Shown here piece after piece: positions 22,131 to 38,176 of a stretch of DNA of 64,000 nt. The position numbers were made by a program, and so were the translations under genes. The stretch is from Nitrospirota bacterium. Its GTDB lineage: Bacteria > Nitrospirota > Thermodesulfovibrionia > Thermodesulfovibrionales > Dissulfurispiraceae. The first letter of the stretch is position 1. Each line of letters starts with the position of its first letter. The stretch covers positions 124,001-188,000 of the forward strand of contig SCQE01000021.1 in the NCBI GenBank assembly GCA_004321915.1, in the 5' to 3' direction. The notes beneath the pieces were generated by a model. The model searched no databases and was not told the origin of the DNA. It saw only the letters and a list, made by a program, of their open reading frames with translations.

Positions 22131-22841
22131 TCAATAACTCACAAGATCGGGGAACAGCGGAGTCAGTTGCCGGAGATTGTCCGTAATCAAAATTAAGCCA
22201 CCGACGATCAGAAGCGCGCCGCTGAACGCCATTATCGCTTTCAGAAGCGTTTTGTTCTTCTTCACTTTGTTCAGTCCGGCGGTCAGCAAAGCAGTTAAAA
22301 TCATGAAGGGTATGATAAGTCCCGCCGAATACCCGATAAGCATTATGAACCCGTAGGCCGCAGTTCCCTGAATGCTTGCGCTGATAAGTATCTTCCCGAG
22401 CGTATGACCGATGCATGGAGTCCAGCCCGAAGCGAATCCTGCGCCCATCAGAAAAACCAGCGGATAGACGACCGCGTCTGCGTTATAAAGCTGACTGCTT
22501 TTTTGTAAAAGCGGAGCTGAAGCCAAAACACCTATAATAAAAATACCGATCATTATTGTCAGTCCTCCGCCCAGTCCCCGCAGATATGCCTGATAATTCG
22601 ACAGCCAAATGCCGGGGGATGAGGGTGATGCCGTCAGTGTAAAGATCAGAACAAGTCCTGAGAGAAAAACGAGCGCAAGCAGCGAGAGGCGACAGCCGCC
22701 AGCGTTTTGTTCATCGCTGACTCCGGATAACCCGGCGACGAGCGCGCTGCAAATAAATATCAGCGGCGGGACGCAGGGCGAGATGAAAGAGATCGCGCCG
22801 GCTGCTACGGCCTGATAGATAGTAACGTCGCTTATATTCAC
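22131..22841 (-). CDS. CcdA-type thiol/disulfide electron-transfer membrane protein
   Basis: 236 residues with six hydrophobic helices. The two CcdA/DsbD-beta Cys motifs are present: SPCVPPLIF in helix 1 and GWTPCIGHTLG in helix 4; each motif deviates slightly from the usual SPCVLPLIP and TPCIGP. CcdA proteins move reducing equivalents from cytoplasmic thioredoxin to periplasmic thioredoxin-like proteins. It is the second such protein in the operon (see 24168-24854), which suggests two periplasmic redox clients. It starts 15 bp after the LolA-like gene. Confidence 0.87.
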   Translation of the reverse strand: MNISDVTIYQAVAAGAISFISPCVPPLIFICSALVAGLSGVSDEQNAGGCRLSLLALVFLSGLVLIFTLTASPSSPGIWLSNYQAYLRGLGGGLTIMIGIFIIGVLASAPLLQKSSQLYNADAVVYPLVFLMGAGFASGWTPCIGHTLGKILISASIQGTAAYGFIMLIGYSAGLIIPFMILTALLTAGLNKVKKNKTLLKAIMAFSGALLIVGGLILITDNLRQLTPLFPDLVSY

Positions 22842-22856: not shown

Positions 22857-23642
22857 TTAGTCCGTCCATTTCTTCGGCGGTTGTTTCAGGTAGCGCTCGG
22901 AAAATAATGAGTCCTCAACGCCGGTGTTGTAATCCGCCTTTATGTATGAGACCTCTGTCCTGTGTCCGCTCTGGAGGTTCTTCATAGTTCTTTTGGTTGC
23001 GGTCGGAAGGCCTTTTATATCTTTTATCTCATCGGCCGTGAATACCCGGTAGAGTTCGCCTTTTCTATCGTAATATTCTTCTTTCAGCGGAAGGTAATTG
23101 TTCTTATTTATCCATGAAAGTTTGTGGCTGTAGTCCACATCAGCGGCCTTAGGTGTGCTTTTTATGACATAGCAGTCTTTGCCGCCGAGTTTTTCTTCCT
23201 TGACCAGCGCATGAGCGTCGTCCTGAAGGTCCCTGCCTGAAACATCCTCATATGTGAAATCGGAGCCGACAAAGCTCGAACTCTTGTCCTTGGCTGCAAT
23301 GCGTCTCATCATATTGACGGCAGGAACGAACAACCATCTGTCGTCGTCTTTCGCGGGATACTTATAGACCATGAAGGTCATGTCCTTGACATCCGCAGGC
23401 TGGAAAAAATACATAAAATATTTCTGGTCGCCTCCGGCTTCGCCGTAATTCTTTCTGAGCATGGTCAGCTCTCTCGTTCTTTCCTGACCGCTTTTGTTTA
23501 TGAGTTTCATGACCACGCGCGCCTTGAAGTCCCTGCCCTGATAGTGAAAGGCCGCCTGCGATTTCTTTATCACATCCTCGGCGGAAAGCGCAAATGCTTC
23601 CAAAGGCATAATCAGCGCAAGCAAAACAAATAAAAGTCTCAT
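22857..23642 (-). CDS. LolA-like outer-membrane lipoprotein-sorting protein
   Basis: About 261 residues. The signal peptide MRLLFVLLALIMPLEAFA starts at the ATG at 23642, which has AGGAGG six bases upstream. The body matches the LolA-like/'outer membrane lipoprotein-sorting' family (RELTMLRKNYGEAGGDQKY, MYFFQPADVKDMTFMVYKY, DDDRWLFVPAVNMMRRI, KSSSFVGSDFTYED). These proteins commonly pair with RND/MMPL transporters, and one lies in the same operon (27625-29994), together with an outer-membrane barrel (20878-22125). A transport role across the periplasm is inferred. Confidence 0.82.
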   Translation of the reverse strand: MRLLFVLLALIMPLEAFALSAEDVIKKSQAAFHYQGRDFKARVVMKLINKSGQERTRELTMLRKNYGEAGGDQKYFMYFFQPADVKDMTFMVYKYPAKDDDRWLFVPAVNMMRRIAAKDKSSSFVGSDFTYEDVSGRDLQDDAHALVKEEKLGGKDCYVIKSTPKAADVDYSHKLSWINKNNYLPLKEEYYDRKGELYRVFTADEIKDIKGLPTATKRTMKNLQSGHRTEVSYIKADYNTGVEDSLFSERYLKQPPKKWTD

Positions 23643-23694: not shown

Positions 23695-24171
23695 TTACTT
23701 TATAAACTCATCCACACGCTTTTCTATATTTTCAAACGCCTCTGTTCCGATATATCGAATTATTCCTTTTCTATCCACAATAATGTGCATGGGAATTCCT
23801 GAGATGCCGAAGGCCTTGCCTATCTCCCTGTTAGTATCAAAAACAATCTGGAAGTTCCAACCTTTTGATTTGACATAACGTTTTACGCCGTCAATTTTGT
23901 CATTTACTCCGGCGTTAACAGCTACAAACTCAAGTTTGTTCCCCAGTTGTTTAGAACGAGTCTTCCACACGGGAAGTTCTTTTTCACAAATCGGTCACCA
24001 CGTTGCCCAGAATTCGATATAAACCGCCTTTTCACCCTTCTTCCCTGTAAAATAGTTTAGTTGCTTTCCATCCAGAGTTGCCGCATTAAATGCAGGCGCG
24101 CGGTCTCCCACAGTAAGGGCATACCCGATGGAAGGGAAGACTAACAATAATGCTATCAGGATTTTTTTCAT
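23695..24171 (-). CDS. TlpA/ResA-like thioredoxin selenoprotein (UGA = Sec59)
   Basis: Read through one in-frame UGA, the gene gives 158 residues: a signal peptide (KKILIALLLVFPSIGYA), the TlpA/ResA start (VGDRAPAFNAATLDGK), the active-site segment FWATW-U-PIC and the rest of the thioredoxin fold (FDTNREIGKAFGISGIPMHIIVDRKG, with the cis-Pro). The UGA (23997-23995) replaces the first Cys of CxxC. The ATG at 24171 overlaps the TGA of the CcdA/DsbD gene in an ATGA, showing coupled translation of the whole frame. Sequence on both sides of the UGA is conserved, arguing against a pseudogene. The protein is probably a periplasmic disulfide reductase recharged by the coupled membrane protein. A normal Cys-to-stop mutation remains the alternative. 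Confidence 0.85.
23962..23976 (-). other. Candidate bacterial SECIS hairpin of the thioredoxin gene
   Basis: Downstream of the UGA the mRNA folds as CUUCC-CGUGU-GGAAG: a 5-bp stem with a 5-nt loop. The loop begins 24 nt after the UGA and has G at its second position. Those three features (upper stem, G among the first two loop bases, 16-37 nt distance) are the known requirements of bacterial SECIS elements recognised by SelB. Confidence 0.65.
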
Positions 24172-24854
24172 ATCAACAGGCCTCCGGCTTTAATTATGAA
24201 ATATTCAGCGGTTATAAATAGAATCAGCGCCAGACCTCTTTTCATCCATATCATCCACCGGCCCGGCTGCGGCAGGGACTTAAGAACGCCGGAGAACGCG
24301 CCTATTATGACAAGTAGCGTAGTCATCCCAAATGAAAAGGCCAGCAGCATCAGGCCTCCCCAAAGGATATCCTTTGTCTGGGAGACATAAAGCAGCAGAC
24401 CGGCAAGCACGGGTGATGTGCATGGCGCTGCTACAAGACCGGATATGGCGCCGGTAAACAGTGCGCCGACATGCCCTTTTTTGTTGATAGTCCGTGGCGA
24501 TGAAAAGAAGGGGACATTTATCCAATCCATCATCCATGCGGCCAGAACAATACAGAAATTCCCGAATACCAGATAACTCCACGGACTTGTTGAAATATCA
24601 CCGAAGAAGCGGCCTGTCATGGAAGCGAAGATCCCCAGCGCCCCGTACACCGCCGCCAGACCGGCGGCATATGAAAGGGAAAGTGTTATCCCCTCGATCT
24701 TTGTATCAACTCTTGAAGCTCCTATCACACCGAGTATTATCGGCACCATCGGGTAAACGCACGGAGTAAGGGAAGCAAGAACTCCTCCCAGATAAGCAAA
24801 GAAGACGGACGACAGGAAAGAGGCGTCTGCGTTGTTTGCGACAAAGTTCGTCAT
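24168..24854 (-). CDS. CcdA/DsbD-beta type membrane electron transporter
   Basis: 228 residues, six to eight hydrophobic helices. It carries the DsbD-like motifs LTPCVYPMVP (helix 1) and AAPCTSPVLAG (helix 4), closer to the DsbD membrane domain than the other CcdA in this operon. It would carry electrons from cytoplasmic thioredoxin across the membrane. Its stop codon overlaps the start of the selenocysteine thioredoxin gene (ATGA), so the two are translated together and the thioredoxin is its likely periplasmic partner, replacing the C-terminal domain that full DsbD has in one chain. Confidence 0.88.
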   Translation of the reverse strand: MTNFVANNADASFLSSVFFAYLGGVLASLTPCVYPMVPIILGVIGASRVDTKIEGITLSLSYAAGLAAVYGALGIFASMTGRFFGDISTSPWSYLVFGNFCIVLAAWMMDWINVPFFSSPRTINKKGHVGALFTGAISGLVAAPCTSPVLAGLLLYVSQTKDILWGGLMLLAFSFGMTTLLVIIGAFSGVLKSLPQPGRWMIWMKRGLALILFITAEYFIIKAGGLLI

Positions 24855-24862
24855 GCTTGCGC

Positions 24863-25273
24863 CTAACAGCCCATTTTGCGGAACGCTTTTATTCTTTTAA
24901 GCACCTTTTCAAGGCCGACTCCCAATGATTCCGCTATTTTATCGCATCCCATGCCGGACTTTTTCATGGCAATTATCTCTTCATCGGTTTTTTCGGCAAC
25001 TCTCATGCAGACTACTATTGCGAGCGCTTCACCCGGTGTAAATTCGCGAATCACCTTTCTGATTGTGGCCGGCGGAACAGCGTGCCCATAATTATCTATA
25101 ACCTTCTCTTCGAAATCACTCAGTTGTTCGGGGGTAGAGCGTTTTTCGGTTATATTCTTCATGAGTTTATTCAAGGCATCAAGTTCATTTTCGGCAAAAG
25201 CAGCATAGGGCATAATGAATATAAGCAGAACAGCAAAACCTGTTATGCCTCTTACTATTTTTTCCTCCATCAT
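24863..25273 (-). CDS. Small secreted protein of unknown function, paralogue A
   Basis: About 136 residues with a signal peptide (IVRGITGFAVLLIFIMPYAAFA). The mature part is charged and helical: a Glu/Lys-rich first half, the pattern PPATIRKVIREFTPGEALAI, and the conserved-looking core IAMKKSGMGCDKIAESLGV. It is clearly related to the protein at 27225-27623 (same layout and the shared MKKSGMG core). The two copies flank the thiosulfate transporter and rhodanese genes. The C-terminal part (SLGVGLEKVLKRIKAFRKMGC) has the length of a helix-turn-helix-like unit but lies outside the cytoplasm. AGGAGG six bases before the ATG at 25273; the YeeE gene overlaps it by four bases. I do not know the function. 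Confidence 0.72.
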   Translation of the reverse strand: MMEEKIVRGITGFAVLLIFIMPYAAFAENELDALNKLMKNITEKRSTPEQLSDFEEKVIDNYGHAVPPATIRKVIREFTPGEALAIVVCMRVAEKTDEEIIAMKKSGMGCDKIAESLGVGLEKVLKRIKAFRKMGC

Positions 25274-26661
25274 CGTACACCTCCTAAGTTTTCTTCCTGC
25301 AGTTCTTTTAAAAAGATTTCGTCCGTGGATTTTGTAATATACTCGGTTTTCGACACCTTTGCTATCTGCGAGCCTTTTCTTATGGTCCAGACAAGAAGCC
25401 ATATCAACAGGGCTGTATAAGCGAGCGCAAAGCCGTACCGGATGTAGTCGTTCTCCGGCAGGAGTTCGAGCATGTTCTTTTCCTTCATGAACCCGACCGA
25501 GAAAAAGACCTCATCTATTTCGTCTTTGTAGAGCGAGTAGGGGAGATATCCGAGCATGAAGCCCGGCAGCGCCGCCAGACCGGTTAGGTATCCCATTCCA
25601 AGCCGCGCATACGTCCGTATTTCGCAGCCGAGCATCATTACACTCCCGATGCCGAGCATCGGCCCGCCGATTAAATGGCCGAGATGAAAGCCGTACTTGT
25701 ATTTGCCCGCTTCCACAACCACAGGCACGTCCCAGCCGAGGACTATCCATGTAAAAAGGATGGCAAGATTAAACATGATGACAGCAACAAGGAGACCGGC
25801 AAAGGGCATCATTCCGGTGAACATGGTCTGTGTAATCTTTGCAACTTTCATGGCATCGAAATGCTGCGGTTTCATAAGGAGAGACTTCGGCGACATCACA
25901 GCGCATTCCGTGCCGAAACCTGATTTGCCTATGCCGATACCCACGAGCAGGCCGACGAGGCTTTTTAAACCGATCTCCACCCACGGCAGCCCTCCGATGC
26001 TGTTCGGGGATTCCCCCTTGAAAGCCGTCCATACTGACGATACGAACAAGACAATCAGAAAAACATTCAGGACAAGTCTGACAGGGTCTTTATACGGCTT
26101 GTGTCCGGGGTTGTAGCTCAGCGTCTCTGTCAGGTACTCAAACTCCACGCACTTCTCGACGGTTGCCCTTACTTCGTGGTGTTTCATAAAACCGCCGGCG
26201 TTAAGTTTCGCCATAAGCATAAACGCAAGGTATGCAAAAGGGATGCTCACTATTGCCACGACGATAGAGGTCAGGCTCATGGCCGGTATGCCGCCGAGAT
26301 AGTGCCAAGCCGTGCAGCCCTGAGCCAGCCTCGTGCCGAAGCCGAAGATCATGGCGCCGAAGAAGGCAAGCGCGATGACGCGCGGAGGGTACTTTACCCA
26401 AGACTTCCGCTCACGCTCGAGGAGCGTTACGAAGAAACCGCCGGAGATCATCCCCATCAGCACCCAGTGGATATCTCCGCTGTAAGTCCTCGTGATGAAG
26501 TCCGTCTTTGTGATATTTTCTTCGAGGGTGCCGAACATTTTAGCGAGGCCGGTCGTGATCGGAATGGGCGTTTCGTATTTGAGAAAATACAACACCTCCG
26601 CGAGCCCTACCAGAAAGCCGCCCCATATGAAGGACCAAGGCTTTGTGAGTATATTCCGCAT
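25270..26661 (-). CDS. YeeE/YedE-family thiosulfate (sulfur) transporter
   Basis: 463 residues and about ten to twelve hydrophobic helices arranged as a duplicated Sulf_transp unit. Each half has a Cys-containing re-entrant motif: GFGTRLAQGCTAWH in the first, GFGTECAVMSPKSLL in the second, plus LGCEIRTYARLG. In characterised members such motifs pass thiosulfate through the membrane by Cys-S hydrogen bonding. The next gene upstream is a secreted rhodanese, spaced by three bases, so thiosulfate or persulfide sulfur is the probable cargo. YedE-type genes near dsrE have been reported as part of a cluster in sulfur-disproportionating bacteria; this locus is similar but not identical, since no tusA is seen. 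Confidence 0.88.
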   Translation of the reverse strand: MRNILTKPWSFIWGGFLVGLAEVLYFLKYETPIPITTGLAKMFGTLEENITKTDFITRTYSGDIHWVLMGMISGGFFVTLLERERKSWVKYPPRVIALAFFGAMIFGFGTRLAQGCTAWHYLGGIPAMSLTSIVVAIVSIPFAYLAFMLMAKLNAGGFMKHHEVRATVEKCVEFEYLTETLSYNPGHKPYKDPVRLVLNVFLIVLFVSSVWTAFKGESPNSIGGLPWVEIGLKSLVGLLVGIGIGKSGFGTECAVMSPKSLLMKPQHFDAMKVAKITQTMFTGMMPFAGLLVAVIMFNLAILFTWIVLGWDVPVVVEAGKYKYGFHLGHLIGGPMLGIGSVMMLGCEIRTYARLGMGYLTGLAALPGFMLGYLPYSLYKDEIDEVFFSVGFMKEKNMLELLPENDYIRYGFALAYTALLIWLLVWTIRKGSQIAKVSKTEYITKSTDEIFLKELQEENLGGVR

Positions 26662-27224: not shown

Positions 27225-27623
27225 TCAGCCTATGCCGAGCCTGAAGTCTTTGACCTCCTTAACCGCGGCCTTGAGGTTTATCTTCAGTTTCCCGGCCATG
27301 TCCGGCCAGCCCATGCCGGATTTTTTCATTGCGACTATGTCTTTGGCCGGTTTCTTCGACAGATTCGAAAAGACGATTATGGTCACTGTATCACCGGGCG
27401 GAAATTCCTTGATCAGCATTTCGACAGTCTCAGGCTTCTGCGCTTCGAAAAAATACGCCTTGGTCTTTTTTTCGAAGGTCTTGAGGTTCTTCGCCTGTCG
27501 CTCGCTTATTTTTTTTATCAGCTTGTCCAGTTCCTCGGGCTCGGACAGCCTTGCAGCAAAGGAAACAATAGGCAGAAGAAAAGCGAATACCACGGCCATA
27601 GCTAAAAAATTTTGCCTATTCAT
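27225..27623 (-). CDS. Small secreted protein of unknown function, paralogue B
   Basis: 132 residues with a signal peptide (FLAMAVVFAFLLPIVSFA). It shares layout and sequence with the protein at 24863-25273: a Lys/Glu-rich helical first half (EELDKLIKKISERQAKN), then a segment with FPPGDTVTIIV, and the core IVAMKKSGMGWPDMAGKL. Position A of the pair has Cys after MKKSGMG while this copy has Trp. It starts one base after the RND gene stop. The pair flanks rhodanese and YeeE. Function unknown; a periplasmic sulfur-binding or carrier role is a guess from context. Confidence 0.72.
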   Translation of the reverse strand: MNRQNFLAMAVVFAFLLPIVSFAARLSEPEELDKLIKKISERQAKNLKTFEKKTKAYFFEAQKPETVEMLIKEFPPGDTVTIIVFSNLSKKPAKDIVAMKKSGMGWPDMAGKLKINLKAAVKEVKDFRLGIG

Positions 27624-31855: not shown

Positions 31856-32200
31856 CTATATGCCGAAACTCAAAAATATCGGCTTTGCTTTGATTACATT
31901 AAAAAGGCCTTTCAGCGAACTCATCTCTCCGCCCTCAATCGAATCCTCTCCCGCAAGACCGCGGGTCTTCATGCAGCCGGTTCATATATCTACTTTAAGC
32001 CCTCTGCCGACAAGGTCTTCCATGACCGAAAGGGAGGGGGGCAACTGCCCTTTGACTATCGAAAAAACCCCGTCCCCCGAAGCGACCAGTCTGGCCTTCC
32101 ACCCCTTGCGCAACGCGGCGTCGGCAAGCTTGAAGACAGTATGCGTATTTTCGAAGCTGTACGGCGTGGTTGAAAGAAACATGACGAACTCTTTGTCCAT
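31856..32200 (-). CDS. DsrE-like selenoprotein (UGA = Sec73)
   Basis: Translating one in-frame UGA gives 114 residues: MDKEFVMFLSTTPYSFENT, then ALRKGWKARLVASGDGVF, GLKVDI-U-TGCMKTRGL and a C-terminal half that ends in KPIFLSFGI. The UGA (31984-31982) stands where DsrE-like proteins have the first Cys of CTGC; frame and sequence style continue beyond it to the TAG at 31856, seven bases before dsrF. DsrE-like selenoproteins are known from surveys of bacterial selenoproteomes. A Sec here would make the sulfur- or selenium-accepting site more nucleophilic. The ATG at 32200 has a strong AGGAGG. First gene of the sulfur operon. A degraded gene is unlikely given intact ends and the SECIS-like hairpin. 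Confidence 0.87.
31955..31969 (-). other. Candidate bacterial SECIS hairpin of the dsrE gene
   Basis: The mRNA after the UGA can fold as AAGACC-CGC-GGUCUU, a perfect 6-bp stem with a 3-nt loop starting 19 nt after the UGA. The loop has G at its second position. Distance, stem length and loop G fit the accepted rules for bacterial SECIS elements. Confidence 0.68.
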
Positions 32201-37854: not shown

Positions 37855-37923
37855 GAGCTGTGGTATATGCATTCATTTTCTTAGTCTTGACTTTTCTCGC
37901 AGGTATCGGTCTAAATAGCAAAT

Positions 37924-38083
37924 CAAGGCGCCGAAAGGCGTAAAAGGGAATCCCGTGAGACGCATCGTTAAATCGGGAGCGGTCCCGCCGCTGTAACCGG
38001 GGACAAAAACCGACTAAGCCACTGGAAGAAATTCCGGGAAGGCCGGTGAATAGGAAGATCCGGAAGCCAGAAGACCTGCCTTG
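37924..38083 (+). promoter_or_regulatory. Cobalamin riboswitch aptamer
   Basis: P1 is formed by CAAGGC (37924-37929) and GCCTTG (38078-38083). In between are the class hallmarks: TAAAAGGGAATCCCGTGAG, GGAGCGGTCCCGCCGCTGTAACCGGG, the B12-box GCCACTGG (38018-38025), CCGGGAAGGCCGG and GGAAGCCAGAAGACCTGCC. AdoCbl or related corrinoids would bind the nascent RNA and turn off the downstream bza/cob/cbi operon. Confidence 0.96.
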
Positions 38084-38176
38084 GTAGCTGTCGGTTGAGA
38101 AGGAAAACTCGACCGCATAGCTTTTTTTCAAACTTCCCGAGGAAGGAAGCTCAGAGGATGAAGTGAATCAGGGTGC

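Follow-up and report, generated by a model that had tools for sequence, protein, structure and literature searches.

In-frame UGA and a conserved SECIS-like hairpin in a TlpA/ResA-like thioredoxin gene from Thermodesulfovibrionia

Background

The thiol-disulfide oxidoreductase ResA has a CcdA/DsbD-type protein as its partner. Selenoproteins with a UxxC motif have been catalogued in several families: the published lists include cd02966 thiol-disulfide isomerase-like proteins, the PF08534 Redoxin family and PF00578 Prx-like thiol:disulfide oxidoreductases, as well as a selenocysteine (Sec)-containing thioredoxin (PF00085, UxxC), which is listed as experimentally verified (PMC13188914), and a "Trx-like 1" COG0526 type with UxxC (PMC2398784).

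Here we describe a gene, termed Sec-TlpA, located in a 64,000-nt stretch of a Nitrospirota genome (hereafter "the window"). The gene appears to be split by an in-frame UGA, and we regard it as very probable that it is a selenoprotein gene, whose UGA would be decoded as Sec by SelB and tRNA-Sec, with a SECIS element located downstream within the coding sequence.

Structure of the split gene and its product

The gene and its upstream region comprise the following features:

23695..24171, minus strand: TlpA/ResA-like, predicted secreted thioredoxin gene, 158 aa with UGA read as Sec
23995..23997, minus strand: in-frame TGA, putative Sec codon replacing the first Cys of CxxC; the same codon is TGA in 10 orthologues
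24181..24185, minus strand: ribosome-binding site GGAGG, 9 nt upstream of the ATG, assigned from the sequence
24168..24854, minus strand: DsbD/CcdA-type membrane thiol transporter (Pfam DsbD_TM, 131.5 bits), overlapping Sec-TlpA by ATGA

The reading frame starts at ATG 24171-24169, which overlaps the stop of the DsbD-like gene (ATGA) and is preceded by the GGAGG, passes in frame through the TGA (23997-23995), and ends at a normal stop, TAA 23697-23695, with the thioredoxin fold continuing in the downstream part. In these respects the structure is as claimed in the original prediction, which was made from the same DNA and also held that automated calling would give a 91-residue protein only; indeed, the plain ORF list contains at this locus solely a 91-aa ORF starting with GTG (23695-23970). 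The read-through product, MKKILIALLLVFPSIGYA-LTVGDRAP...FWATW-U-PICEKELP...SGIPMHIIVD...EFIK, comprises a signal peptide-like N terminus (MKKILIALLLVFPSIGYA, which by eye has the appearance of a typical signal sequence), the WATW-U-PIC active site and a cis-Pro loop (GIPM), and it should be exported. The UGA is codon 59, with the start Met counted as 1. With U read as C, the matches to the Pfam families Redoxin (73.6 bits) and AhpC-TSA (67.6 bits) extend across the TGA, in agreement with the claim that the UGA replaces the first Cys of CxxC, and the coding bias persists past the TGA just as the protein family match does.

ResA is the best match of the product both by sequence and by structure. 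The AlphaFold2 model (mean pLDDT 81) matches ResA in Foldseek with probability 1.00, a TM score of 0.72-0.78 by query length, and 26-32% identity, so that the proposed TlpA-like identity holds, with ResA structures as the closest solved ones. Against the curated ResA family NF002854, Sec-TlpA scores 80 bits, below the cut-off of 170, and all NCBIfam selenoprotein models stay below their cut-offs on this protein, the nearest being NF041054 WAxxUGC_long (49 of 300 bits). By sequence and fold, Sec-TlpA is a TlpA/ResA-type thiol-disulfide oxidoreductase, i.e. a member of the superfamily of ResA and not ResA itself.

Orthologues and the conserved TGA codon

For comparison we used the genomes of the window's family (31), class (230), and phylum (396). 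Within the family, a Sec-TlpA orthologue is confined to the window genome; the search of the 31 genomes returned distant homologues only (at most 37% identity), and a search of a collection of genome contigs revealed only distant homologues (at most 34% identity) and no close relative. In the class, the best matches are 34-46% identical and nearly all contain one TGA, which always occupies the codon of the first Cys. Ten orthologues, from several families and orders, have TGA at the very codon of the UGA in Sec-TlpA.

A profile search of the phylum separates the Sec-TlpA group (at least 200 bits) from all other matches (at most about 110 bits) by a gap. A 67-protein tree recovers the group as a clade with 98/91 support; of its 13 members, 11 have TGA at the same codon (Sec) and 2 have Cys. 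A single Sec-to-Cys change would be the simplest reading of the Cys pair, since the two are sisters nested inside the Sec members. The same class contains other TlpA-like Sec lineages, one with TGA at WASW/WAPW-U-DTC (L089-L093, L096) and one with WASW-U-PFC/SYC (L075, L084); L089-L093 and L075/L084 lie apart in the tree and differ in their downstream hairpins.

The downstream hairpin

According to the bSECISearch criteria, a bacterial SECIS element is a stem-loop within the coding sequence just past the UGA, with the apical loop about 16-37 nt after the UGA and a G within the first two loop bases. Conservation of a loop G in bacterial SECIS elements has been described (PMC1794560). The candidate in the window is:

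23962..23976, minus strand: bacterial SECIS-like hairpin CUUCC[CGUGU]GGAAG, with the motif CCCGUGUGG in 11/11 Sec orthologues and covariation in nine in-register orthologues

This hairpin has a 5-bp stem, starts at the 19th nt after the UGA (18 bases between) and exposes the loop CGUGU, with G at position 2, 23 nt past the UGA, in accordance with bacterial SECIS elements in both position and loop G. The original prediction had pointed to this very 5-bp/5-nt hairpin, which does exist but taken alone is no better than chance. Its folding energy equals that of shuffled sequences (z = 0.07), i.e. there is no stability excess, which for a SECIS hairpin would be supportive but is not required, and of the 2118 TGAs that the window contains, 10% have a comparable 5-bp hairpin with a loop G in range, as do 21% of codon-resampled versions. 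Because of this z value, and because 10-21% of the controls are equally good, the hairpin of the window on its own is no evidence for a SECIS element. The loop sequence CGUGU is rare (1/2118 TGAs in the window, 0.6% of codon-resampled versions). An Rfam search of the 64-kb window returned a cobalamin riboswitch only (37909-38096, plus strand, 120.5 bits).

In all 11 Sec copies the motif CCCGUGUGG is found at an equal place after the UGA, while both Cys orthologues are without it (CCC CAG ATT and CCC CTG GTC). Nine Sec orthologues encode the motif as CCC CGT GTG GAG (Pro-Arg-Val-Glu, PRVE), and in the window gene and its sister (L062) the motif is offset by one base from that frame and reads CCC GTG TGG AAG (Pro-Val-Trp-Lys, PVWK). 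It is apparently the RNA and not the peptide on which selection acts here, because the same RNA is obtained from different amino acids (PVWK versus PRVE). Among the nine in-register orthologues the Pro CCC, Arg CGT and Val GTG codons are invariant (9/9), whereas P1, C3, F23 and G25 are invariant as residues but not in their codons.

The stem is paired in 93.7% of cells of the nine-sequence alignment and includes 3 pairs with changes on both sides. Its pairing or covariation values are attained in 2/500 shuffles and its count of two-sided changes in 7/500, counts that are not to be read as probabilities, the nine sequences being few and related; versions of the stem slid along the alignment are at most 68% paired. 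RNAalifold independently yields the same hairpin for these nine sequences. The pattern of UGA, CxxC spacing and CCC(N)GUGUGG has 11 matches in the 230 genomes, all of them in the Sec-TlpA gene, and its reversed control has 0 matches in the same genomes. A covariance model built from the nine in-register orthologues finds the window hairpin as its best match in the window, although weakly (15.5 bits, E 0.08), because the motif of the window gene is in a different register.

The conservation of the TGA together with CCCGUGUGG across 11 genomes, as judged from the aligned sequences, rules out chance, and it is this comparison, not the single hairpin, that upholds the interpretation of the hairpin as a putative SECIS element. 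In this alignment, selection on a SECIS element would be unusually easy to tell apart from selection on the protein. We lean towards the view that the apical motif CCCGUGUGG, bound by SelB, is so strict that the protein yielded, one branch having shifted the motif by one base, from PRVE to PVWK or the reverse, with the RNA unchanged. If true, the gene would offer a natural experiment on the extent to which a SECIS element can determine the amino acids beside an active site, at a locus for sulfur handling that has both a TlpA-like and a DsrE-like Sec gene.

Selenocysteine machinery and other selenoprotein genes

We searched the window genome (145 contigs, 99.6% complete) for the Sec machinery, the presence of which had been proposed as a check, and found all of it: tRNA-Sec (71.2 bits; anticodon tca in ARAGORN), selA (616 bits), selB (357 bits) and selD (362 bits). 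The selD gene is located on the same contig, about 5 kb outside the window, and has its own in-frame TGA, followed by the hairpin CUGCUCCA[CGUGU]UGGGGCAG, whose pentaloop is identical to that of the Sec-TlpA hairpin. Co-occurrence with selA across the class was dropped as evidence: it discriminates poorly and carries little weight, since selA is present in 202/230 class genomes (88%).

In the same genome there are also two formate dehydrogenase-like genes (L121 and L122, on contigs C108 and C53) with in-frame TGA (ARI-U-HSATV and ARL-U-HSSTV) and strong hairpins after it, as well as a second, very divergent TlpA-like gene with an in-frame TGA (L094, C19:892-3308, frame 998-1477, FTSW-U-TRC). 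The window itself contains a second selenoprotein gene:

31859-32200, minus strand: DsrE-like selenoprotein gene with TGA at 31984-31982 (KVDI-U-TGC); Pfam DsrE, 38.7 bits across the TGA

This protein has homologues in 108/230 class genomes, nearly all matches having one TGA. In the 20 loci that were read out, the TGA occupies the same codon and is followed by the hairpin CCGC[GGUCUU]GCGG, with one loop base different in L142; the next pair outward of CCGC/GCGG changes on both sides. A DsrE-like UxxC protein is a listed selenoprotein type (PMC13188914).

Alternative explanations

What the computation shows is the gene structure, the conservation of the UGA, a conserved RNA hairpin with covariation, and a genome equipped with the machinery. 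Three other explanations of the split frame were considered. A Cys codon (TGC or TGT) that was mutated or misread to TGA in a dead gene is one base away, and the orthologue stands alone in the window genome among 31 of the family; yet ten further genomes, spread over several families and orders, have TGA at this codon, which excludes the sequencing error that the original prediction had named as a risk, the frame is intact to a normal stop, and both the downstream protein and the RNA motif are conserved. We consider this possibility already refuted, with a probability close to nil. A recoded genetic code or a suppressor tRNA inserting Trp or Cys would equally leave the frame open through the UGA, but 12/34 long stop-bounded frames (at least 300 codons) in the window end at TGA, as does the overlapping DsbD gene itself, and tRNA-Sec, SelA, SelB and SelD are all present; furthermore, the UGA lies at a redox Cys position with a conserved hairpin after it, and we find decoding as another residue very hard to credit.

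Deliberate termination would make the UGA the true stop of a short peptide, with GTG 23970 as the independent start codon of the 91-aa ORF; this reading agrees with the stop at UGA that is expected under selenium limitation and with the presence of that GTG. However, the thioredoxin fold would be incomplete in either half, no ribosome-binding site is seen by eye upstream of GTG 23970, and the three bases of this GTG form the G-U-G of the hairpin loop and are conserved along with the RNA motif, which makes termination highly improbable as well. From the sequence comparison we infer that Sec is actually inserted at the UGA of Sec-TlpA.

Gene neighborhood and possible function

Downstream of Sec-TlpA the window contains:

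22857..23642, minus strand: LolA-like outer-membrane lipoprotein-sorting protein, the next gene (PF17131, 220 bits)
22131..22841, minus strand: second CcdA-like membrane protein (weak DsbD_TM match, 19.7 bits, under the Pfam cut-off)

Analysis of the orthologous loci reveals LolA-like, MMPL-like, YeeE-like, methyltransferase and DUF1302-like neighbors in varying combinations, several of them recognized by similarity of frame ends and not by profile. A DsbD_TM gene lies directly upstream of the Sec gene also in L062; the LolA-like gene adjoins Sec-TlpA also at L065, with similar frames at L071 and L073; and the counterpart of the second CcdA-like protein in L068 is above the Pfam cut-off. In the window, the block around Sec-TlpA contains rhodanese, YeeE/YedE, DsrE-like and SQR-like genes. 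The presence of the rhodanese, SQR-like and DsrE-like genes in this block points to sulfur chemistry as a likely context of Sec-TlpA. Two similar small secreted-looking proteins with an IxAMKKSGMG-type stretch near the C terminus (24863-25402 and 27225-27623, minus strand) flank the YeeE-like and rhodanese genes.

We propose that the UGA at codon 59 would be translated as Sec by SelB and tRNA-Sec, guided by the hairpin just downstream, and that in the exported product the selenol of WUPIC would be the attacking residue and the Cys the resolving one. The DsbD-like protein is the probable electron donor, passing cytoplasmic electrons across the membrane to Sec-TlpA; this is suggested by the overlap of the two genes and by analogy with CcdA-ResA. 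Sec-TlpA may then reduce disulfides, persulfides or related oxidized sulfur species in the periplasm, given the rhodanese, YeeE/YedE, DsrE-like and SQR-like genes that share a block with its own.

Gene callers split this gene and thereby lose its active site, and the same gene is present in at least 11 genomes of the class. With Sec-TlpA, the selenoproteins of this class, nearly all of whose genomes have selA, would include an exported thiol oxidoreductase, and the gene content of the locus (DsbD-like, rhodanese, YeeE/YedE, SQR-like, Sec-DsrE) suggests that one step of sulfur redox chemistry in the periplasm depends on selenium.

Comparison with known systems

With ResA of Bacillus (PDB 4nmu, 1st9, 2f9s) and TlpA/CcmG/DsbE, Sec-TlpA shares the fold and a CxxC-type site, and to judge from its N terminus it may be exported as they are. 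ResA, however, has Cys at the active site where Sec-TlpA has UGA/Sec, and, unlike in ResA, the gene neighbors of Sec-TlpA are not cytochrome c maturation genes. The Sec-containing thioredoxin of PF00085 likewise has Sec at the N-terminal redox position of UxxC, but that family is the classical thioredoxin, whereas Sec-TlpA is a TlpA-like protein with a signal peptide-like N terminus. The motif of NF041054 WAxxUGC_long is UGC, in contrast to UPIC in Sec-TlpA. Closest in description are the catalogued UxxC TlpA/redoxin types, which, like Sec-TlpA, combine the TlpA/AhpC-TSA thioredoxin fold, Sec for the first Cys of CxxC, and UGA with a downstream hairpin. Such selenoproteins are already catalogued, and Sec-TlpA, set beside the listed families by description, would add a further well-supported one, which, to judge from its orthologues, is an unusually clean comparative case for a SECIS element.
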